The notes beneath the pieces are model-generated. The model saw only the letters and a list, made by a program, of their open reading frames with translations. It had not been told where the DNA came from and searched no databases. A DNA stretch of 64,000 nt from Archangium gephyra (lineage in GTDB: Bacteria > Myxococcota > Myxococcia > Myxococcales > Myxococcaceae): the NCBI RefSeq assembly GCF_001027285.1, contig NZ_CP011509.1:8146501-8210500 (forward strand). The letters run 5' to 3'. Below, one piece after another: positions 1,354-13,984 of this stretch; position 1 is the first letter of the stretch, and the number at the start of each line of letters is the position of its first letter. Position numbers and translations under genes: made by a program.

Positions 1354-3012
1354 TCACGGGGACAGGGCGATCCAGTCGGACAGCGGGGTCACCTCCTGGG
1401 GGGCCTCGCCCGGCCGCACGATGAAGGCCCCCCGGATGCCCACCCGGCCCTGGGAGCCGAAGGTGACGGGCCACGTGACGCCCGTGTCCACGTCCTGGAA
1501 GGACTCCAGCGCCGACACGAGCCCGGCCCGGCTGACATCCGCCCCGCCGCGCCTCAACGCCTCCACCAGCAGCCGCGCCGAGGCGTAGGCATTGAGCTGC
1601 CAGGCGAGGTTCCTCGGGGCCAGTCCGTGCCGCTTCAGGAAGGACTCGAACTCCTGGCGCCCGGGCGCGTGTCCCTCCGAGGGTGACGCGGGGTGGATGA
1701 AGCGCACCCGCGACCAGGCGGCCGCGGGGACGGGCCCGGCCAGTCCCGACAACAGGCCCGGCGCATAGATGGGGACACTCCCGCTCGCAGCCCCCCGCTC
1801 CGACAGCAACGCGGACAGCTCGGCACCTGTACCGGAGAACAATACGGCTCCGGCGCGCAGGCCCTGCCACCACCGGGTGGCCTCCGCCGCGTCGAGCTGG
1901 CCCGGCGCGTAGGTGAAGACCTGGGGCCGTGGCCAGTCCCGGCGCTCGGCCTCGGAGCGCACGCCCCGGGCCCAGGCCTCCCCCGCGTCGTTGCGCGCGT
2001 GCACCACCGCGAGCACGGGCTCGAGCGTCCTGCGCTCCCACGTGGAGTGAAGGTGCTGCACCGCTACCCGCGCCTGCAGCTCCGGGCCCGGGTACACGTA
2101 GAAGATCATCCGGCCGCCGTTCTCGGCATGCGTGTCCGACAGCCCCACCGGCGCGACGAGGGGAATCTCCTCCGCCTCCAGCCGGGCATCCGACGGGCGA
2201 GGCCCCGTGCGGACGCTGCCCACCAGCGCGAACACGTCCGTGTTCAGCAGCCGGCCCGTCCCGTCCGTGCCCGCCACCGCCAGCGCATCGTCCTCCACGC
2301 GCAGTTCCAGCTGGCGGCCGAACACCCCGCCCCGCTGGTTCACCTCCGCGAAGACGGCGTTCAACACCGCGCGCACGTCCTCTCCCACCGTGGCCAGCTT
2401 CCCGGTGAGCGGCAGCGCCGCCCCGAGCACCAGCCGATTCTCGAACACCCCCGGGTCCCGGTCGTCCCCGAGCCGGTGCAGGTAGGCGAGGAGGTCCGCC
2501 TGCTCCCGCTCCGGCAACTCGAAGCGGGGCATCACCGGGCCCAGCACACGCCCGCTGGACGAGACGCCCCGGCGGAGCGCCTGGGTGAGGGAGGCGTTGT
2601 CATACGCGGGGCGCTCCCACTGGCCCGAGCCGGGAGCTGCCGTGGACACCGGGGCGAACAGCCGGGAGGCCTGGATGTTCGGAGCCACCACTCCTCCCTC
2701 GCCGGTGCCCCTGCCCCTCGGACCATGGCAGCGGGCACAGGCCGCCACCGAGCCCGTCAGCTCCACGCCCTCGGAGCCCAGCCGCCCCACCACGGGTGCT
2801 CCCGAGGACAGCATGCCGCGCAGGAAGAGGGCCTTGCCACGCAGCTCGGACTCGGTGAGGGCCGCGCCCCGCTCCACGGCCGGAGCCTGCTTCGAGGCGA
2901 ACAGCGTCCACGACTCCCAGGTACAGAGCACCATGACGGGGAGGATGAAGAGCGACCACCTCGGGCGCGCGGAGGCAGGGACGCGGCGATTGCGGCGCTT
3001 AGTGAGTCTCAT
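1354..3012 (-). CDS. cytochrome c fused to a periplasmic-binding (Leu/Ile/Val-type) domain
   Basis: The 552-residue protein starts with a basic N-terminus and one membrane anchor (about 19-37). A class I cytochrome c domain follows, with a C-A-R-C-H haem site at residues 92-96 and a probable axial Met in the segment after VMPRFELPE. From about residue 195 to the end it reads as a type-1 periplasmic-binding fold (Peripla_BP_6-like; GAALPLTGKLATVGE opens it). It is the last gene of the oxidase operon, and its start overlaps the SCO gene stop by 14 bases. The anchored haem domain could pass electrons to or from the multicopper oxidase while the binding domain senses or captures a ligand. That role is inferred; the ligand is unknown. 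Confidence 0.85.
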   Translation of the reverse strand: MRLTKRRNRRVPASARPRWSLFILPVMVLCTWESWTLFASKQAPAVERGAALTESELRGKALFLRGMLSSGAPVVGRLGSEGVELTGSVAACARCHGPRGRGTGEGGVVAPNIQASRLFAPVSTAAPGSGQWERPAYDNASLTQALRRGVSSSGRVLGPVMPRFELPEREQADLLAYLHRLGDDRDPGVFENRLVLGAALPLTGKLATVGEDVRAVLNAVFAEVNQRGGVFGRQLELRVEDDALAVAGTDGTGRLLNTDVFALVGSVRTGPRPSDARLEAEEIPLVAPVGLSDTHAENGGRMIFYVYPGPELQARVAVQHLHSTWERRTLEPVLAVVHARNDAGEAWARGVRSEAERRDWPRPQVFTYAPGQLDAAEATRWWQGLRAGAVLFSGTGAELSALLSERGAASGSVPIYAPGLLSGLAGPVPAAAWSRVRFIHPASPSEGHAPGRQEFESFLKRHGLAPRNLAWQLNAYASARLLVEALRRGGADVSRAGLVSALESFQDVDTGVTWPVTFGSQGRVGIRGAFIVRPGEAPQEVTPLSDWIALSP

Positions 3013-3625
3013 CGTTGAGGTGCTCCACCGCGTAGGCGAGGTTCTCGGGAGGGGCCATGGCCAGGGCCCTCAGCCAGGTGCCCGTGACGGAATCGCCGAT
3101 GATCACCGACGTCAGGTGCTTCTCCGGATCCTCCGTGTAGCCACCGACCTTCTTGAGCACGGCCTCCACGTTGGCGCGGGATCCGGAGAGGAAGTACCAG
3201 CCGGGGCTCGCCTGGAAGCGCTGGGAGAACGCCTTGAGCTTCCCGGGCGTATCGTTCACGGGATCCACGGTGATGGTGATCATGTGGATGTCCTTGCCCA
3301 GCCGGGGCCCCAGCAGCCGCTGCACGCGGGCGAGGTTCGCGGTGATGGGCGAGCACGCCGTCTTGCACGAGGCGAACGCGAAGTTGATCAGCACCGTCTT
3401 CCCCCGGATGAGGTCCGAGTAGAAACGGCGCGGCTTGCCGTCCTGATCCACCAGCTCGGTGTCGGTGAAGTACCGGGCCGCCGCGGCATCCGCCTCGGGC
3501 CCACCGGTGATGGGCAGGCGCTCGGTGCGCGCGGGAGCCTTGGGCTCGGGGTCCCTGGCGGAGGACAACCCCGGAGACAGCGAAGCGAGGAGGACGAGGA
3601 CGAAGGTGAGGGCTCGGGGAGTCAT
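2999..3625 (-). CDS. SCO1/SenC family copper chaperone (copy A)
   Basis: The 208-residue exported protein has a cleavable signal peptide (about 1-23) and a thioredoxin-fold SCO domain. The copper-binding C-x3-C is C87-K-T-A-C91 and the distal ligand is H170 in the KHLTSV segment. SCO proteins deliver copper to, or reduce thiols of, copper enzymes in the periplasm; here the obvious client is the multicopper oxidase of the same operon. The ATG overlaps the TGA of the other SCO copy (ATGA), which indicates translational coupling. The two copies share only moderate similarity, so they may serve different copper sites. Confidence 0.93.
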   Translation of the reverse strand: MTPRALTFVLVLLASLSPGLSSARDPEPKAPARTERLPITGGPEADAAAARYFTDTELVDQDGKPRRFYSDLIRGKTVLINFAFASCKTACSPITANLARVQRLLGPRLGKDIHMITITVDPVNDTPGKLKAFSQRFQASPGWYFLSGSRANVEAVLKKVGGYTEDPEKHLTSVIIGDSVTGTWLRALAMAPPENLAYAVEHLNDETH

Positions 3626-4257
3626 GGGGTGTTCCGCGCGGTGGAGGGAGGGTTCTTCCTGGGGGCCTTCGGGTTCCTGGAGAGGAGGGCTTCGAGCTGC
3701 CCGGCGAGCTGCGTGGGGGCGGAGAGGCCGTAGGCGCGCGTCCACTCGCCGGTGGCCTCGTTGCCCAGCAGCACCACGGGGGTGTGGGACTCCTTCGTCG
3801 CCACCGCGCCGCCCAGCGCCGTGAGCGCGCGCTGGACGCGCTCCGCCGGGCCGGTGACGAACGTCCAGCCCTCGCGGCGGTCGAACTTCCCGGCGTAGCG
3901 CGCGAGACGCTCGGGGGTGTCCGCCGCCGGATCCAACGAGATGGAGATGAGGTACACGTCCTTGCCGAGCCGCTCGCCCAACTCCTTCTGCAGCCGGCTG
4001 AAGACGGCCGTCATGGGCGAGCAGATGGTGCTGCACGTGGTGAAGACGAAGTTCACCGCCACCACCCGCCCCTTCATCAGGTCCGAGTACAGGCGCACCG
4101 GCCTGCCGTCCTGATCCACGAGCTGCTCATCGGGAATCACCAGCTTGCGCGCGGGCTCACTCCGGGCCGGCGCCACGGCCGCCCCCTGCTCTCCAGCCAT
4201 CGCCACCGAGCCGGCCAGCAGCAGCGCCAGCGCCACACCGTGCGGACGCGTCTTCAT
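3622..4257 (-). CDS. SCO1/SenC family copper chaperone (copy B)
   Basis: The 211-residue SCO protein has a signal peptide (about 1-22, ending AMA), a C75-S-T-I-C79 copper site and H158 as the third ligand. The remaining thioredoxin-like fold matches copy A. A Lys/Pro-rich tail of about 15 residues is an oddity of this copy. Its start codon shares bases with the stop of the propeller gene (ATGA) and its stop with the start of copy A, so three cistrons are coupled. The likely role is copper insertion into the exported oxidase; whether both copies are needed cannot be seen from sequence. Confidence 0.93.
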   Translation of the reverse strand: MKTRPHGVALALLLAGSVAMAGEQGAAVAPARSEPARKLVIPDEQLVDQDGRPVRLYSDLMKGRVVAVNFVFTTCSTICSPMTAVFSRLQKELGERLGKDVYLISISLDPAADTPERLARYAGKFDRREGWTFVTGPAERVQRALTALGGAVATKESHTPVVLLGNEATGEWTRAYGLSAPTQLAGQLEALLSRNPKAPRKNPPSTARNTP

Positions 4258-6257
4258 GGATTCACTCCTCCAGCGAGGCGCGTGGCCGCCTTGACGTCCG
4301 TTCCCTCCACCACGCCCAGGGTGACAGGCCAGAACGAGCCGAGCGGCGCACCGCGAGACTCCACTCCGGCCAGGAACTTGAACTGCCCCGGCGCTGGCGG
4401 CCGGAAGGTGACCTCGAACTCGCCGTCGCCCAGCGCACGCGGGCTGCCGCGCCACTGCCACGCGCCGGGCGAGCGGAAGAGCAGCACGGAGACCTCCTCG
4501 GCGCGCACGGGCTCGCCGGAGCCGGAGTCCGTGAGATGGAAGCGCAGCGCGTGCTCCTCGCCGGCCTTCCAGCGCATGGAGGCATCGAAGCGCGGCTCCA
4601 GTTGCACCCGGTGCGCCTGCCGCGCCGTCACCTCGGCCGAGGCCCCCACCCGCTGCTCCAGGCAGGCCACGACACGCGGGCTGTCCAGCAGGAACGCCAC
4701 GTCATAGGTGCCGGGCTCCTTCACCCGCACCTGCGTGCTGTACACGCCGGGCCGCACCTCCTCGAGCGAGCGATTGAGGACGAGCACGGCCTTGGGCTCG
4801 CGGCCGTAGTTCAGCAGCGTGCCCATGGGGGCCATCATGCCCTCGCGGTAGAAGTAGAGGGACTTGTCCGCCGGGCTGGAGACGATGACGCCATCGCCCT
4901 TGGGGACGGGCACGAACGGAGCGGCGAGCCCGAGTCCCCGCGCCTCCTCGGGAGCCTTCTGGCCCACCTGCACATCCACCACCCCCGGGGCCGCCGGCTG
5001 CTCCAGCGAGGCCAGCTTCACCAGCGAGATGCGCGGGTCCCCGGTGTTGCGCACGTAGGCATAGCCATCCGTGAAGGACACCGCGTCGGGCGCGTCGAAA
5101 CCGTTGAGCACGTGCCGGGCCTGACCCGACGAGGCATCCAGCACCGTCACCTCGTTGCGCGCGCCATTCACCACGAAGGCCCAGCGGCCCGAGGGATCGA
5201 AGCGCAGCGACTTCAACCCGGGCGAGAGCGCCACGCGGCCCGTCACCGAGAGGGTCCGGCCGTGGGCCACCACCACCTCGCCCGTCCGGCCGTTGGCCAC
5301 GTACACCGCGCGGGCCGTGTCACTGGCGGTGATGGCCACCGCGCCACGCCCCACCTTCACCCGCTCCAGGGGCTCGAAGGAGGCCGTGTCGATCACCGTC
5401 ACCTCGTCCGACGCCTCGCTCGTCACCCAGGCCGTGCGCCCGTCATCCGCGAAGGCGAACTCATGGTGCCCCTGGCCCACCTCCACCGTCGCGAGCGGCT
5501 TCTGCGTGCGGTGGTCGATGACCGTGACGGTGCCGTCTCCGTCGTTGCCCACCCAGAGCGTCCGCCCGTCCGGCGAGAGCGCCAGGCGCGTCGGCTCGCG
5601 GCCCACCTCCAGGTGGGCACTGGCCAGGAAGGTCCGGGTGTCCACCCGCGACACACGGTGCGCCGTGGGCATGCTCACGTACAGCGCGCTCCGATCCGGA
5701 TGGAGCGCCCAGTCCGCCGCGGGCGCGGAGAGCGTGACGAGGCTGCGCAGCTTCGTGCGGCTGAAGGCCAGCTGGGGGTTGATGACGGAGAGGGTGTTGT
5801 CGTGGTTCAGCGCGAGGACGAAGTAGGAGTTCAGGTCCGCGTCCGCCTGCACCGAGAGCAGTCCGCCCAGGTACGTCTTCACCTTCGCGGCGCACTGCGC
5901 GTCCGTGAGTGCCTCGGTGCCCTCGCGCAGGGACATCCACCCGAGGGGGCGGGCCCCACGCACCGGCTCGCCGGAGCGGGCATCGGTGAGGGTAAAGGTG
6001 GCGATGGCCTCGGACCGAGCCTCCACCGGACCGGCGCCCACGGCGGGCCGCAGGTCGAACTGGATGGACAGGCCTTCACGCTCGACACGCGGGCCTTCTG
6101 GAGCCCTCGGGCCAGGGGCGGTGGGCGGCGTCTCCACGGGAGCCACCACGACGGGCGCGGGTGCGGCCACGGCAGGCCGCTCCGGGAGCAGCGCCTGGAC
6201 AGCGACAGCGAGGGACAAGGGCCCCAGCGTGCACAGGGCGATGAGCGTCTTCTTCAT
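4254..6257 (-). CDS. exported YVTN-type beta-propeller protein of the oxidase operon
   Basis: The 667-residue protein has a signal peptide (about 1-24). Residues 45-130 form an N-terminal domain with one Cys in DAQCAAK. About 130-420 hold YVTN/cytochrome-d1-like propeller repeats (for example ALSPDGRTLWVGN and AYVRNTGDP). The C-terminus has two Ig-like or cupredoxin-like parts resembling the FixH/YtkA style (about 500-667). There is no haem motif, so the propeller is probably structural or binds a partner. It follows the oxidase by 98 bases and overlaps the next gene by four. The position suggests that it docks with the oxidase or the anchored cytochrome, which is inference. Confidence 0.85.
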   Translation of the reverse strand: MKKTLIALCTLGPLSLAVAVQALLPERPAVAAPAPVVVAPVETPPTAPGPRAPEGPRVEREGLSIQFDLRPAVGAGPVEARSEAIATFTLTDARSGEPVRGARPLGWMSLREGTEALTDAQCAAKVKTYLGGLLSVQADADLNSYFVLALNHDNTLSVINPQLAFSRTKLRSLVTLSAPAADWALHPDRSALYVSMPTAHRVSRVDTRTFLASAHLEVGREPTRLALSPDGRTLWVGNDGDGTVTVIDHRTQKPLATVEVGQGHHEFAFADDGRTAWVTSEASDEVTVIDTASFEPLERVKVGRGAVAITASDTARAVYVANGRTGEVVVAHGRTLSVTGRVALSPGLKSLRFDPSGRWAFVVNGARNEVTVLDASSGQARHVLNGFDAPDAVSFTDGYAYVRNTGDPRISLVKLASLEQPAAPGVVDVQVGQKAPEEARGLGLAAPFVPVPKGDGVIVSSPADKSLYFYREGMMAPMGTLLNYGREPKAVLVLNRSLEEVRPGVYSTQVRVKEPGTYDVAFLLDSPRVVACLEQRVGASAEVTARQAHRVQLEPRFDASMRWKAGEEHALRFHLTDSGSGEPVRAEEVSVLLFRSPGAWQWRGSPRALGDGEFEVTFRPPAPGQFKFLAGVESRGAPLGSFWPVTLGVVEGTDVKAATRLAGGVNP

Positions 6258-6355: not shown

Positions 6356-9300
6356 CTACGGCTGCACGCGGACGATGCCCCACAGGCCATCGGCGAGCAT
6401 GGAGGCGGGCTGATCCCGGTACATGTAGTCACCCGGGATGGCGTTCGCGCCGCCCGCGCCGTAGAGCGGCGTGAAGTTCCAGGCCTTCATCACCGACATG
6501 CCGTCCTGCGTGGTCATCGCGCAGGACTTCGTGTTGGTGCCCTGGAAGTCGGAGCCGGAGCCATCCGCCCAGGCGTCGTGGATCCACTCGGCGCCGTGCA
6601 GGGTGAAGGCGTGCTGGCGCGCGTGCCCCGAGGGCTGCACCACGCGGAAGCGGACCGCCGCGCCGGGCTTCGCGGTGAACACCGGCGTCTCCGGATCTCC
6701 ATGCACCCGCGAGCTGAAGACATCGCCCAGTTGCTGGTCGTTCACCGTGCCCTCGCTGGCGTGGGGCGGCAGGCCGAGCCGGGCCCAGAGGGGCTCGGTG
6801 CGGTAGTTGAAGCCCTTGTGCCCCACATCCTCGGCATCGTCCGCGCCGCTCATGTTGCGCAGCGCGGTGCCTCCGTTGAGGTCCGGATCGTTCGACTGGA
6901 ACGCCGGCCGGTCGCTGTGGAGCGCGAGCTCGTCCTGGTAGACGAGCACGAACTCGCGGAAGGACGTGGTGGTGCCGCTCCGGGTCTTGTACGTCACCGT
7001 GGCCTGGGCCTCGGTGCCCGTGTCCGCGCTCCAGGTGGCGCCCTGCGGCTCGACGATGAGCGTGCCCACCGCGCCGTGCATGCCGTGGGTCACCACGTCC
7101 GCCATGTCGCGCAGGTTGACGGCGCCCAGCTCCACCGGCTTGCCCTCGAAGAGGAGCGTGTTGCCGCCCTGGTCCGTGAGCTTGAAGTCGGCGGCCGACA
7201 GCAACGCCTGGATGGTGAAGTCGAGCAGGTTGATGCCCGAGGCGAGCTTCGTCACCTCGTAGCGGCCGGCGTACCACTGGTAGGTGCGCGACTGGCCGGG
7301 AGCCACCGTCTGCACGCTGTTGTAGCCCACGTTGGCGCCGTCCCCGCGGTTCACGTCGTACTGGAGCAGCTGCGGGTGCAGCGACACCTGGCTGGACATG
7401 GGCACCTGGTTGACGTTGAAGCCATCGGTGATGGGCGTGAGGTAGTTCCAGTGCGGAGAGCGGGTGAACTGCGCGGGCAGCTCGTTGACGAGCTTCACCT
7501 CGATGCACTCGCCCGCGGCGGCCCGGAGGATGAGCGGCTCCGGACGGCGCGCACCCGAGCGCACGGCGGCCAGGTGCTCGGCCTTCACGAAGAGGATGGC
7601 GTCCGGGTCATACAGCCCGTGCTTCTGGCTGTAGACGAGCTTGCCTCCCGGCACGTTGCCCCGGGCGGTGATGGCGTGGACGGTGTAGAGCCGCTTGGGT
7701 GCCGTGGTGGGGCACGCGGGCACCACCTTGGTCAGGTCCAGGCGCGCGGTGTTGTTGGGCAGCGGCTTGAGGTCCGAGCGCGCCTGGCCATACGAGCGGA
7801 CGATGCCCCACAGGCCGTTCCACAAGTCGTCCGTCGAGGCGCCCTGGTACAGGTAGTCCGCCGCGCCGAGCAGGTTCTTGTTGCCGGGAATCTCCAGCAT
7901 GAACTCCATGTGCTCGGAGATGCCGATGGCCTGGCCGTTGACGAAGCCGCTGTCCTTGCGATCCGGCTCGTGCAGCCACTTCAGCCCGTTGAGGGTGAAG
8001 ACGTGCTGGTCCTCCTGGGCGCCCTGAATCATGCGGATCTGCACCCGGTCTCCCTCGTACACCGGCAGCAGCGGCGTGAAGGGGTCGCCGTGCAGGTCCG
8101 AGCGGAACACGTTGGCCATGTCACCCAGGTCTCCCGGCCGGGGAGCCCACTCGCCATCCGGGCCCTTCGAGGCGATGCGCAGCGGAATGGGCTCGTGGCG
8201 GTAGTTGACGAGCATGGAGCCCGGATCCGCGGTGGAGAGGACCTCGGGGGCCACCACGCCCGCCGGGTGTTCCACGGCCCGGGGCAGCGCCACCTCGTGA
8301 ATCGTGGGCGGATTCACCGGCTTGCCACTGGCGTCGTAGACGATGGCGTAGTCGGCGAAGGCCAGGTTGAACTCGCGGAAGCTGTCCGCGCTGTTCGCGG
8401 TGAGGATGTCCGCCTTGAAGCTGGTGGGGCCGCCGTCGTCGCGCGTGCCGAAGACGGTGCCCGTCACCGGATCCCTCCAGGTGCTGCCGGCTGGCTCCAC
8501 CACCAGCGCGCCGTAGAAGCCGTGGTGCTGGGCGGACGAGGGCGTGAAGTGGTCATGCGTGAAGACGGTGCGCATGGTGCGGTCCTTGCCCGCGCTGTTG
8601 ACGAGCGGATCCGCCCACCAGCGCTGGCGGGTGCTCTGCGCGCCCAGCGGAGCCCCGGGAATGCGCGGGTGCGAGGTGGCCGAGAGGAAGACGCGTGAGC
8701 CGCTCTGCGTCAGCGCGCCATCCGCCGCGAAGGCGCCACCGGCCGCGTTGGCCGCGTCGATGCGGGCGCGCACGTCGTCCGCCGAGAAGGTGCCGTCCTC
8801 ATAGTTCCAGCCGTTGCCCGAGCCGTCCGAGGCCGTCACGTCGAACTTCACCAGGTGGATGTGCTGGCCGATGGTGTCCGTGGGCGTGAAGACCTGGAAG
8901 TCATCCGCCTCGAGCACGTCCGGGATGAGGTTGGTGGCGGTGAAGTTGATGCAGTCGCCGGAGTTGGCCCGGAAGAAGAAGGGCTCGGGCGAGCGCGTCT
9001 TGTCCAGCGTGGCCTGCACGTCGCGCTCGAGCACCATGATGCGGCCCTGCGGGTCATGCCAGCCCGCCTTGTTCACCGTCAGGTCCGTCTGCACGTAGGC
9101 CGCGCGGTAGTTGCGCTCGGGAGCGCCCGGCTTGCAGGGCTCGGAGAAGGGAGCGCCCGGCTTGGGCGGCTGGCCGTTGACGAGGAACCAGCCCGACTGG
9201 CCCTCCGGCGTATAGGCCGGGTAGCCCGCAGCGGGCCAGCCGTAGCGCGTGTTGACGCGGGCCGCTCCGGCGAGCTGCCCCGCGTGGTACTGCATGGCCA

Positions 9301-11305
9301 CCTTCTCGCCCGGCGTGCCGTCCTCGGGCAGCAGCTTGATGTTCGCCTTGTGCACCTCCACGTCGAACTCGCCGCGCCGGCCGTACTCCACCGCGTGCTC
9401 GACGGCGGGCACGCCCGTCATGATGTGCCGCGGCAGACCACCGTTGTGCTCGAGGTCCAGCGGCGGCTGCGGAGGCCGGTGGCCCGGCACGCCCGCGACG
9501 AAGAAGGGGTAGCCGGGCACGGCCGGGCGCTGCGCGGTGCCACCGCTGGCCAGCGCCACCTGGGTGGGTGCATAGGTGGGCATGGGCGGCATGGCGCGGC
9601 CGGGCACGGGCACCACCGCCGGGTTAGGCGTGCCTCCGGAGATCTCCGCGTCCGGCAGCCGGCGATCCTGCGTGCCCGCCTCGAAGACGTCATGCGCCCG
9701 CCACAGCGCCCACATGCCCTGCGCGAAGTGCGGGTAGAGGTGGCAGTGGAAGATGGCATCGCCCACCGTGAGGTTGCGGTTGCCCGCGCCACCGTAGGTG
9801 ATGTCGTACGTGAAGGCGCCGCCCGGGCCGATCGTCTGCGAGTCCAGGTAGGTGGAGTTGTCATCCGCCCACGAGTGCAGCCACTGGTGGCCGTGCAGGT
9901 GGAAGACGTGTGTCTCCTTGGGCCCCGCGTGGATGTTGCGGATGCGCACCGGATCTCCCAGGTAGCTGTGGTGCACGTTGGACGGGTCATCCGGGTAGAG
10001 CGCCGCCACCGCCCTGCCCTCCGCGTCCCGCTCCACGTTCAGCGCCGGATCTCCGTTGGCCCAGGACTCGAGGAAGAACTCCTCGAACTTGCACTCGGCG
10101 CAGTCCTTCGTGGGGCCGATCTTCTTGCGGTTGGCCAGCAGCTCCGAGCCCAGGCCCGAGGCGCCATAGTTGATGCCGAAGCCGTCCCGCACGCCGTGCA
10201 GCATGGGGCGCGTCTCCAGCTCCTGGAACGCCTGCACCGCCTTCATCTCGTCATGGAAGAGCACGGTGAACTCGCGGAAGCGGCCCTCGTTCAGCGAGAC
10301 GCTGCTGTTCATCCCCGTGGTGGTGTAGCCACTGATGATGGCGTTGAGATCGCCGTGGACGATCTCCCCGCCCGCCGTGGTCATCCGCAGGAGGGGGATG
10401 CCCGCCGCGTCCACCGCGTCGTAGTCGATGAGCGGCGTGCCATCCGGGTTCGTCAGCGGCTGGCCCGTGGCGGGATCCTTCCGCGTCGCCGCCGCGAGCT
10501 GCGCCGCCGTCACCTGCGAGCGGTACCAGACCGAGCCCGCCGGCTCCACGTTCACCGCGCCGAACAGGCCGTGCGTCGTCGAGCCGCCCATGCCCTCGCC
10601 GCCCACCGGCGCCCCCATGCTCTGCACGAAGAAGGCGCCCTCGCGGTCCGCGTGCCAGTTGTAGACGCGCGTCTCGCCCGGCCCCGCCAGCGAGCTCCAG
10701 TTGAAGCCCACGTTCGAGCCGTCCGACATGATGTCCAGCGGCTGCAAGCCGTTCACGTGGAACGAGGCCAGCCGCGTCGCGGGCGAGTCGTTGCGCATGT
10801 CGCCGTTGTCCGGCTCCTCTCCCGGCTCCGGCGTCTCGGGCGGCAGGTTGAACGCCCAGTCCGGCGCCCCGTGCAGCGAGATCTGCTCCCGCGTGGGCGC
10901 CAGCCAGTTGGTGAACCGCACCTGCAGGCAGTCCCCCACGTTCGCCCGCAGCGTGAGGGGGCGCGGGCGCTTGCCGTCCCGCAGGCGCGCGTTGCCCGGC
11001 CCCACCGGGCGCGAGGCGTCCACCGCCACCACGTCAAGCTTCAGGGCGTAGATCATCCCCACCGGGTTGAATGAGCCGAAGCGGTTGTACGTGATGACCT
11101 GATCGAGCGCGACCACGTCCGCGGTCAGCGTTCGCGCACAGGACGCCAGTCCCGTACGGAGCTCGTCCACCGGTACAGCGGATGGGCTCGGTTCGTCCGC
11201 GGAGGACGATGCCTGGGGATCGCAGCCCGCTGCCAGCACGCTGGCCCACAGCAGCACGGCTCGGAGGGAGTGGCGACGTCTTGAATGGATGACGAGAGGG
11301 TTCAT
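6356..11305 (-). CDS. giant multicopper oxidase lipoprotein, six cupredoxin-like domains, copper motifs in permuted order
   Basis: The 1649-residue protein has a lipoprotein signal (LAAGC near residue 28) and three tandem two-domain cupredoxin modules (about 40-560, 560-1110, 1110-1649). The trinuclear-site motifs are present but out of the usual order. The HxxHxH motif is H466/H469/H471 and the HCHxxxHxxxxM motif is H520-C521-H522, H526, M531, both in module 1. The HxH pairs H815/H817 and H917/H919 (with H927-H928) come later in module 2. The matching places elsewhere are degenerate. It heads an operon with two SCO proteins. Such very large oxidases include the MnxG/McoA type that oxidise Mn(II), but the substrate here is unknown. 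The start is chosen to put the lipobox correctly; an upstream ATG would add 11 residues. Confidence 0.9.
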   Translation of the reverse strand: MNPLVIHSRRRHSLRAVLLWASVLAAGCDPQASSSADEPSPSAVPVDELRTGLASCARTLTADVVALDQVITYNRFGSFNPVGMIYALKLDVVAVDASRPVGPGNARLRDGKRPRPLTLRANVGDCLQVRFTNWLAPTREQISLHGAPDWAFNLPPETPEPGEEPDNGDMRNDSPATRLASFHVNGLQPLDIMSDGSNVGFNWSSLAGPGETRVYNWHADREGAFFVQSMGAPVGGEGMGGSTTHGLFGAVNVEPAGSVWYRSQVTAAQLAAATRKDPATGQPLTNPDGTPLIDYDAVDAAGIPLLRMTTAGGEIVHGDLNAIISGYTTTGMNSSVSLNEGRFREFTVLFHDEMKAVQAFQELETRPMLHGVRDGFGINYGASGLGSELLANRKKIGPTKDCAECKFEEFFLESWANGDPALNVERDAEGRAVAALYPDDPSNVHHSYLGDPVRIRNIHAGPKETHVFHLHGHQWLHSWADDNSTYLDSQTIGPGGAFTYDITYGGAGNRNLTVGDAIFHCHLYPHFAQGMWALWRAHDVFEAGTQDRRLPDAEISGGTPNPAVVPVPGRAMPPMPTYAPTQVALASGGTAQRPAVPGYPFFVAGVPGHRPPQPPLDLEHNGGLPRHIMTGVPAVEHAVEYGRRGEFDVEVHKANIKLLPEDGTPGEKVAMQYHAGQLAGAARVNTRYGWPAAGYPAYTPEGQSGWFLVNGQPPKPGAPFSEPCKPGAPERNYRAAYVQTDLTVNKAGWHDPQGRIMVLERDVQATLDKTRSPEPFFFRANSGDCINFTATNLIPDVLEADDFQVFTPTDTIGQHIHLVKFDVTASDGSGNGWNYEDGTFSADDVRARIDAANAAGGAFAADGALTQSGSRVFLSATSHPRIPGAPLGAQSTRQRWWADPLVNSAGKDRTMRTVFTHDHFTPSSAQHHGFYGALVVEPAGSTWRDPVTGTVFGTRDDGGPTSFKADILTANSADSFREFNLAFADYAIVYDASGKPVNPPTIHEVALPRAVEHPAGVVAPEVLSTADPGSMLVNYRHEPIPLRIASKGPDGEWAPRPGDLGDMANVFRSDLHGDPFTPLLPVYEGDRVQIRMIQGAQEDQHVFTLNGLKWLHEPDRKDSGFVNGQAIGISEHMEFMLEIPGNKNLLGAADYLYQGASTDDLWNGLWGIVRSYGQARSDLKPLPNNTARLDLTKVVPACPTTAPKRLYTVHAITARGNVPGGKLVYSQKHGLYDPDAILFVKAEHLAAVRSGARRPEPLILRAAAGECIEVKLVNELPAQFTRSPHWNYLTPITDGFNVNQVPMSSQVSLHPQLLQYDVNRGDGANVGYNSVQTVAPGQSRTYQWYAGRYEVTKLASGINLLDFTIQALLSAADFKLTDQGGNTLLFEGKPVELGAVNLRDMADVVTHGMHGAVGTLIVEPQGATWSADTGTEAQATVTYKTRSGTTTSFREFVLVYQDELALHSDRPAFQSNDPDLNGGTALRNMSGADDAEDVGHKGFNYRTEPLWARLGLPPHASEGTVNDQQLGDVFSSRVHGDPETPVFTAKPGAAVRFRVVQPSGHARQHAFTLHGAEWIHDAWADGSGSDFQGTNTKSCAMTTQDGMSVMKAWNFTPLYGAGGANAIPGDYMYRDQPASMLADGLWGIVRVQP

Positions 11306-11492: not shown

Positions 11493-13346
11493 CTAGAAGC
11501 CGGGGCCCGAGGGCGTCAGCGTCGCGCTGAACACGTCCGTCATTCCCGTGGCCTCCTCCACCTCGGCCACTCCCCTGCCGCGCGCATCCGCGGTGAACTC
11601 CACTGTGTGGCTGGCGCCTTCACCGCTCACCGTCAGCCGGTAGCGGCCCCCCGGCGTCACGAACCGGCCAATCAGTTGCAAGCCAATGCGGTTGCCGCCA
11701 TTCACCGTGTCGGGCGCGATGGCCACCGTGCCGGACAGCTCCTGGCCTCCCGAGCCCGTGAACACGAAGTCACGCCCGGTCGCCAGCACCGTCACTTCCC
11801 TCACGAACGTCGTGCTCTTGCCCAGCCCGTCCGTCGCCCGGGCGTACAGGTAGATGACCTGCTCGACCACCACCGTCGGCGCCAGCCAGTTCGTCTCGTA
11901 CATGCCCGACTGCGCGTTGAGCGTCAGCGGCTGCCAGAGCGCCGGGTCCGGCTGCGGAGCCTCTTCGAGCTCCACACCCAGCGGCACCGCGTACAGCTGC
12001 CACTCCACCGCCGTCACACCCGAGCCCGAGTCCGTCGCGGACACCTGCACCAGCTGGTCCACTCCACCCGCCAGGTGCGCATCCACCACCGGAGAGATCA
12101 GGTCCACCACCGGCGCACCCCGGTCCACCGTCACGTTCACGGCCGTCTGCACCACCTGCCGCGCGCTGTCCGAGGCCCGGACGCCAATCACCTGCGCGCC
12201 CTCCCCCAGCGTGTTCGTGTCGAGCCGCACCTCGTAGAACCCCGTCAGGCTGTTGAAGCCCATGACGTTCCAGACGAGCCCACCCACCGTGTACTCGACC
12301 TTGGAGACACCGAAGTCATCCCCGGCCTGCGCCTGCAGGGTGATGGGGCCCTGGAGCACCGCGCCCTCGGCCACGTTCACGATGCTCACCGTGGGCGGCA
12401 GATCCACGCCCGTGGAGAACGAGAGCACCTGCGACACCCCCGCGTTGCCGGACGCGTCCACCGAGCGCACCCGGTAGAAGTACGTCCGGTTCGGCTGCAG
12501 GCCCGTGAGGCTCACCCCATGGCTCGTGGTGCGCGCCGGATCCACCCCCGTCGCCGAGCCCAGGGCGCTGCTGGTGCCGTACTCCACCTGCGAGCTCGCC
12601 GGCTCGTCCGTGGTCCAGCCGATATCGGCGGAGGTCGGCCCCGCCACCGCCGTCATCCCGCTCGCGAGCGGAGCGCGGGTGTCCGTGGGCGTCCCGGACA
12701 CCTCTCCGGAGCGCGGGGACTCGTTGCCCGCCACGTCCACCGCCGCCACCACGTAGTAGTACGGGGTGCCGTTGCTCAGCCCCGGGTCCCGCAGGAAGCT
12801 CACCGACGTCCCCGCCACCTTCGTGTACGGGCCACCGGACGTGGTGCTCCGGTACACGTTGTAGCCCACCAGGTCCATCTCCGTATTGGAGCTCCAGGAC
12901 AGATCCAGGTACCCGCCGTTGCTCGCGCCCACCTGCGCGGCCACCTTCACCCCGGTGGGAGCGGCCGGGGGATTGGCCACCACCGCCACCGCGTACACCA
13001 GCCGCTGATTCCCATCCCCGTCGATGGCCCGGACGTACACGCTGTGGCTGCCATCCGCCACCACCAGGGTGTTCCACGTGCCCCGGTACGTCGTCGACAG
13101 CAGGCTCCCGGAGAGCGCCGTCCAGACGCCCTCCGCGGTGTCGATCTGGTACTCCACCCGGCTCACGCCCGAGCCCAACAGCCCGTCATCCGCGCGGACC
13201 TCGAGGGCGGCCTGGCCGCTCACGGCCACGCCACTGGCGGGTTTCACGATCGTCACGGTGGGGGGGGTCGAGTCCAGCCCGAGCAAGGCCAACGCGGGGG
13301 TGCTCGCCAGGGACACCAGGAGCGCCGCTCCATATCTCCAATACAT
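11493..13346 (-). CDS. secreted Ig-like/fibronectin type III repeat protein
   Basis: The 617-residue exported protein has a signal peptide (about 1-20, ending ALA). An Ig-like domain of the 'TPPTVTIVKPASG' type (about 22-130) comes first. Two fibronectin III domains (about 130-330) and two or three more Ig-like domains (about 340-540) follow, and then a C-terminal beta-rich part. It is probably a surface or matrix protein with no catalytic site visible. The start at 13346 is preferred because GGAG sits six bases before it; an ATG twelve bases upstream is less well placed. Its first domain is closely related to the neighbouring 185-residue protein, pointing to domain duplication. Confidence 0.82.
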   Translation of the reverse strand: MYWRYGAALLVSLASTPALALLGLDSTPPTVTIVKPASGVAVSGQAALEVRADDGLLGSGVSRVEYQIDTAEGVWTALSGSLLSTTYRGTWNTLVVADGSHSVYVRAIDGDGNQRLVYAVAVVANPPAAPTGVKVAAQVGASNGGYLDLSWSSNTEMDLVGYNVYRSTTSGGPYTKVAGTSVSFLRDPGLSNGTPYYYVVAAVDVAGNESPRSGEVSGTPTDTRAPLASGMTAVAGPTSADIGWTTDEPASSQVEYGTSSALGSATGVDPARTTSHGVSLTGLQPNRTYFYRVRSVDASGNAGVSQVLSFSTGVDLPPTVSIVNVAEGAVLQGPITLQAQAGDDFGVSKVEYTVGGLVWNVMGFNSLTGFYEVRLDTNTLGEGAQVIGVRASDSARQVVQTAVNVTVDRGAPVVDLISPVVDAHLAGGVDQLVQVSATDSGSGVTAVEWQLYAVPLGVELEEAPQPDPALWQPLTLNAQSGMYETNWLAPTVVVEQVIYLYARATDGLGKSTTFVREVTVLATGRDFVFTGSGGQELSGTVAIAPDTVNGGNRIGLQLIGRFVTPGGRYRLTVSGEGASHTVEFTADARGRGVAEVEEATGMTDVFSATLTPSGPGF

Positions 13347-13984
13347 GTTCAACTCCATACCTGGATGTGGGGGAAGGACGGCCTGAGACATGACGCGGCC
13401 CTGGCGGAGACGGGCGCAAAGCCTGTCACCGGCACGCTTCAAACACAGACATCGACACAGGGCACGCCGTCACCCGGGCTCGACGTCACCGCGCCCGGGC
13501 AAGGAACGCTGTCGGTCCGCGACAAAAGCGAGATTCGTGCCGCTCCCTGAACACTTGGCTCACCCTGGAGGGCTGGGAGGAGCGCCAGATTCTTTTCTTT
13601 CGGGAAAACGAGGGGTTATCGGTTCACCTTCGAACGCGCGGCCGGCTCGGGGACTTGCTCCCCCGCCTGGACGCTCTCCAGGCCGCTCCGCGTTCCGGGA
13701 GTTCTTTCAGCGTTTCCGTGCGGTATCCGGCAAAACCTACTGATTCTTGCAGTGCCATTGCGGCGGCTGCAGTGGGGCGAAAGCGAGCTTCCAGCCACGT
13801 GGCGCACGGCCGCCCCGCATTCCTGAAAGGAATTCAGTGCCCCGGAAGCAGTGGCTGGGAGCCGCGAGAGGCTTCACCGGAGGCGGGCTCGTCGAGCACC
13901 AGGCCAACATCGGTGAAGCGCGGCGGGTACGGCATCCACCCGAACGGCGCGGGGCGCACGGAGCGCCCCGGTGGACAGCGGCCT
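13347..13984. other. 638-base gap holding one copy of a duplicated upstream block
   Basis: I see no convincing gene here. The sequence TTTCTTTCGGGAAAAC (13594-13609) recurs at 14623-14638, and TTCTTTCAG near 13702-13710 recurs near 14721, with similar spacing (about 110 and 99 bases). Both copies lie upstream of leftward Ig-like genes, so the block may carry shared promoter or operator sequence. An imperfect palindrome around GAATTC lies near 13822-13835. Confidence 0.5.

Follow-up and report, generated by a model that had tools for sequence, protein, structure and literature searches.

An MnxG-family six-domain multicopper oxidase and its conserved gene cluster in Archangium gephyra

In an ordinary three-domain laccase of about 500 aa, the HxH copper motifs come before HxxHxH. 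What kind of enzyme, then, is encoded at a locus of Archangium gephyra where the product is 1649 aa long and the HxH motifs come last? The multicopper oxidase gene in question, P0001, lies on the minus strand (11305..6356, ATG at 11305, stop codon ending at 6356) of the window, by which we mean the whole 64,000-nt stretch of DNA that was analysed; the forward-strand translation of 6356-11305 contains stop codons. Close to the N-terminus, Cys28 in the sequence LAAGC was read by eye as a putative lipoprotein signal.

Four copper motifs were located by alignment, and their minus-strand coordinates were calculated from the ATG at 11305. Domain 2 carries HVFHLH (codons 466-471, 9893..9910) and HCHLYPHFAQGM, of the HCHxxxHxxxxM type (codons 520-531, 9713..9748), and domain 3 carries HIH (codons 815-817, 8855..8863) and HDH (codons 917-919, 8549..8557). 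The original prediction, made from the sequence of this locus, had listed HxxHxH, HCHxxxHxxxxM and the two HxH motifs at exactly these positions and in this order. From the standard multicopper oxidase motif we take H466 to be a ligand of the type-1 copper and H469 and H471 to be ligands of the trinuclear site. In the second motif H520 and H522 are putative trinuclear ligands and C521, H526 and M531 putative type-1 ligands; the putative trinuclear ligands of domain 3 are H815, H817, H917 and H919. All 12 residues are invariant and follow the same order in 84 of 84 aligned sequences, that is, P0001 and 83 relatives of at least 1200 aa (MAFFT FFT-NS-2).

In the other four domains the equivalents of the copper ligands are degenerate and variable in the alignment, which bears out the earlier proposal that the remaining domain interfaces are degenerate. 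The equivalent residues are H183-N185 and Q228/M230 in domain 1, H1101-T1104-N1106 and Q1154-G1155-A1156 in domain 4, H1310-Q1312 in domain 5, and H1565-T1568-H1570 and R1630-D1631-Q1632 in domain 6, with the type-1 Cys replaced by Gly in domain 4 and by Asp in domain 6. Domains 1 and 5 still have a single His from the first HxH, so that traces of decay from a repeated ancestor remain legible.

Family and structure searches establish P0001 as a member of the MnxG family. The NCBIfam MnxG model NF041487 matched it in seven stretches along the chain (1031.2 bits, E=0); this score is below the model cut-off of 3100, so that by the NCBIfam rule P0001 is a relative of MnxG and not an MnxG equivalog. 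In a phmmer search of the PDB the sole strong match was 9bxa, MnxG (E=5e-136), with six collinear stretches and the same motifs. Two overlapping AlphaFold2 models, built from input alignments of 60-61 sequences, cover the protein from residue 48 (residues 48-1195 and 715-1649; pLDDT 89.5 and pTM 0.91 for each), and 9bxa was the best structural match of both. The first superimposed on 9bxa chain 1-806 (Z 29.2, 794 residues, rmsd 2.9) and the second on 428-1205 (Z 31.6, 731 residues, rmsd 2.8). Together the two matches span 9bxa from the N-terminus as far as residue 1205, and six cupredoxin domains are predicted for P0001, in agreement with the six-domain chain that had been proposed. At the sequence level the trinuclear ligands fall in domains 2 and 3 and the single type-1 site in domain 2. 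Invariance of the ligands and collinearity of the models with MnxG support, as a prediction, the trinuclear site that had been placed at the junction of modules 1 and 2, where the second domain of the one meets the first domain of the other, with a ligand geometry that would be that of MnxG. The title of 9bxa is 'Structure of Mnx H340A complex', and by hand count its Ala340 aligns with the type-1 ligand H526 of P0001.

Bacillus sp. PL-12 MnxG (9bxa) shares with P0001 the order of six domains, the four copper motifs and their order, and a CxxC pair before domain 2; it differs in length (1227 aa vs. 1649 aa), owing to insertions in P0001. The CxxC pair of P0001 (C402-C405, 10091-10102, minus strand) lies just before domain 2, may form a disulfide or an additional metal site, and is invariant in 84 of 84 sequences, Bacillus MnxG having VVCPDCD, and C724/C785 and C1198/C1267 are nearly invariant in the same alignment. 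Ceruloplasmin, in which six cupredoxin domains likewise form one chain and a single trinuclear site sits between two of them, matched less closely (Z 23.9 and 24.3).

The motif order had been described as 'permuted', with the implication that it was new. This part did not hold, and a circular permutation unique to P0001 was rejected. A phylogenetic study of 2013 (PMC3600357) reported the domain 2/3 site in all bacterial six-domain oxidases analysed there; the six-domain oxidases of Sorangium cellulosum and Stigmatella named in it have the same architecture as P0001. Given this report, the invariance in 84 of 84 sequences and the collinearity with 9bxa, the layout is the normal one for the MnxG family. 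Both the layout and the widespread cluster were already known, and P0001 is a further relative in this family.

A scan with one genome per species returned 165 stretches related to P0001. The best 80 of these belong to Myxococcota, Acidobacteriota, Nitrospirota, Planctomycetota, Thermodesulfobacteriota and Pseudomonadota, plus one bin of Bacillota. The maximum-likelihood tree of the domain 2-4 region (quick search, SH-aLRT support only) had three main groups: presumed Pseudomonas-type MnxG, Leptothrix/Sphaerotilus, and Nitrospira together with planctomycete and most myxobacterial proteins. The first is named on the presumption that the group holding L091, a paralogue from the same genome, is of the Pseudomonas type, in a tree without a Pseudomonas sequence. 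P0001 was recovered in a myxobacterial clade (support 100), away from the presumed Pseudomonas-type group. Within this clade its nearest relatives are Polyangiaceae proteins, with which it sides weakly (83), and not the Archangium/Myxococcus proteins. Identity to the sampled myxobacterial relatives was 59-66% over the domain 1-4 region. One of five other genomes of the genus has a full-length relative, of 1706 residues, which fits the Archangium violaceum locus L009; in the tree the partner of L009 is the L002-type paralogue, not P0001. Bacillus MnxG, whose sequence was taken partly from HMMER alignments, has a very long branch and is placed with little certainty. The phylogeny that had been suggested as a check places P0001 in one family with MnxG-like and Leptothrix proteins, with no ordinary laccase placement, and together with the match to the MnxG model and to 9bxa in sequence and structure it supports MnxG as the nearest group. 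Tandem pairs of MnxG-like oxidase genes were observed in Sorangium cellulosum So0157-2 (L014:9833-19211) and Methylobacter luteus (L065:4193-15211).

P0001 heads a five-gene cluster on the minus strand, in which the downstream genes overlap or are closely spaced. It is followed by a YVTN-type beta-propeller protein of 667 aa with a weak C-terminal YtkA-like match (4254..6257), a SCO1/SenC copper chaperone of 211 aa with the motif CSTIC (3622..4257; its start overlaps the propeller stop), a second SCO1/SenC chaperone of 208 aa with CKTAC (2999..3625; its start overlaps the stop of the first), and a 552-aa fusion of cytochrome c (CARCH) with a type I periplasmic substrate-binding domain (cyt c/SBP; 1354..3012, its start overlapping the end of the second SCO gene). 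These partners are conserved: in the 62 related loci whose downstream flank extended for 4.5 kb or more, the propeller was found near the oxidase gene in 54, SCO in 49, and propeller, SCO and cyt c/SBP together in 46 (phmmer hits at E<=1e-6 no more than 8 kb away, on either strand). In Leptothrix discophora CCM 2812 (L043:4325-14617) the propeller, SCO and cyt c/SBP genes are divergent from the oxidase gene. Directly upstream of P0001 lies a gene for a bacterial Ig/fibronectin type III protein (11493-13442, minus strand), which was not seen as a conserved neighbour in related loci.

The P. putida GB-1 mnxG operon consists of mnxG, a YVTN propeller, two SCO1 genes, a substrate-binding protein gene with a cytochrome c domain, and a SurA gene (PMC11409713, Table 4). 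The order of its first five genes is identical to that of the P0001 cluster; for the terminal SurA-domain gene, no SurA-like ORF was seen by eye between 1354 and the start of the window. Bacillus MnxG requires the partners MnxE/MnxF; the five cluster genes include no apparent counterpart of either. The Leptothrix discophora homologue L043 is about 50% identical to P0001 and has the same motifs. The MofA-type oxidases of Leptothrix/Sphaerotilus, compared without the SS-1 MofA sequence, form a well-supported clade separate from P0001. The published neighbours of mofA are mofB (FKBP/mip) and mofC, whereas at the P0001 locus these positions are taken by the propeller, SCO and cyt c/SBP genes, and an FKBP gene (PF00254) gave no match within the window region of the genome. 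No mof neighbours were recognised on inspection of the L. discophora locus L069. Given the separate clade and the lack of an FKBP neighbour, orthology of P0001 with MofA is not supported.

The 12.5-Mb genome contains three mnxG-like operons including that of P0001. The second (locus L093) is at G000:C1:3979250-3984292 on the minus strand and the third (locus L094) at G000:C1:10476614-10482229 on the plus strand; both of these full-length paralogue loci carry the partner cluster too. Identity to P0001 is about 60% for the paralogue L002 and about 47% for L091. It is L091, at 10.48 Mb, and not P0001 that is the genome's closest match to the NF041487 model (2550 bits). A further multicopper oxidase of conventional size (L095, G000:C1:6003390-6004445, minus strand; 646-aa frame) shows weak similarity and is a separate enzyme.

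In multicopper oxidases the type-1 copper accepts single electrons from the substrate, and the trinuclear cluster reduces O2. We consider it probable that P0001 is an exported MnxG-family oxidase, probably lipid-anchored, with Mn(II) as the most likely substrate and the trinuclear site between domains 2 and 3. The substrate, Mn(II) or possibly also Mn(III), would yield electrons singly to the sole type-1 copper, predicted to occupy the domain 2 site formed by H466, C521, H526 and M531. By way of the Cys-His link the electrons would then reach the trinuclear cluster, which domain 2 (H469, H471, H520, H522) and domain 3 (H815, H817, H917, H919) would form where they meet and in which O2 would be reduced to water, with domains 1, 4, 5 and 6 serving as a scaffold with decayed copper sites. 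Both downstream SCO proteins probably load copper, which fits the known role of the SCO family, and the beta-propeller and the cyt c/SBP fusion would act as conserved partners of the oxidase.

The fold and motifs do not tell whether Mn(II), Fe(II) or a phenol is oxidised, and our literature search found no Mn oxidation for any member of this myxobacterial clade; Mn is the best-supported function by analogy with the relatives and from the identity of the operon. An oxidase with the MnxG fold and the same copper chemistry acting instead on Fe(II), Cu(I) or an organic substrate is rather unlikely in our estimate, although several observations speak for it. The genome holds three diverged copies; perhaps one of these operons serves Mn oxidation and the other two have diverged. 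The clade of P0001 is apart from the presumed Pseudomonas-type MnxG, and the bacteria with related proteins include nitrifiers, methanotrophs and planctomycetes. Moreover, Sphaerotilus carries multicopper oxidases of the Mn-oxidase type yet is understood not to oxidise Mn (PMC13386937). Set against these are the match of the first five genes to the P. putida operon and the naming in the literature of MnxG and MofA, the relatives that are better known, as Mn oxidases. A misread three-domain laccase or CopA-type oxidase, on the other hand, deserves practically no credence: the weak matches to CopA and to Pfam (Cu-oxidase_3, E=2.8e-5; Cu-oxidase_2, E=0.0071) are limited to domain 2, and this reading was rejected on the length of the protein, the MnxG match over the full chain, the six-domain models and the placement in the MnxG-family tree, which refute it.

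An electron-transfer role would overlap with Mn(II) oxidation and is compatible with a Mn substrate: the oxidase would give or take electrons through the cyt c/SBP fusion, which would couple oxidation to respiration, in one direction or the other, rather than to O2 alone. Retention of the fusion with the oxidase in most of the loci compared is consistent with such a chain, as is the title of a reference on P. putida GB-1 cited in PMC11930936. We nevertheless regard it as improbable, as the trinuclear O2 site is intact in the ligand alignment and a direct route to O2 would therefore suffice. More speculative, and quite improbable as a whole, is the reading that the conserved cluster works outside the cytoplasm as a self-contained unit for metal oxidation, with part of the electrons going to the cytochrome c fusion, and that different substrates or oxidation steps are divided among the three operons.

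With MnxG-type Mn(II) oxidation as the preferred reading, the motif order that is so striking in the raw sequence marks a known Mn-oxidase family, for which this work contributes a myxobacterial genome in which mnxG-like operons occur three times. The interest of the finding lies in this three-fold presence and in the broad conservation of the partners. As the propeller, SCO and cytochrome-fusion genes are conserved across several phyla, the role of these partners in Mn oxidation is a clear experimental target.
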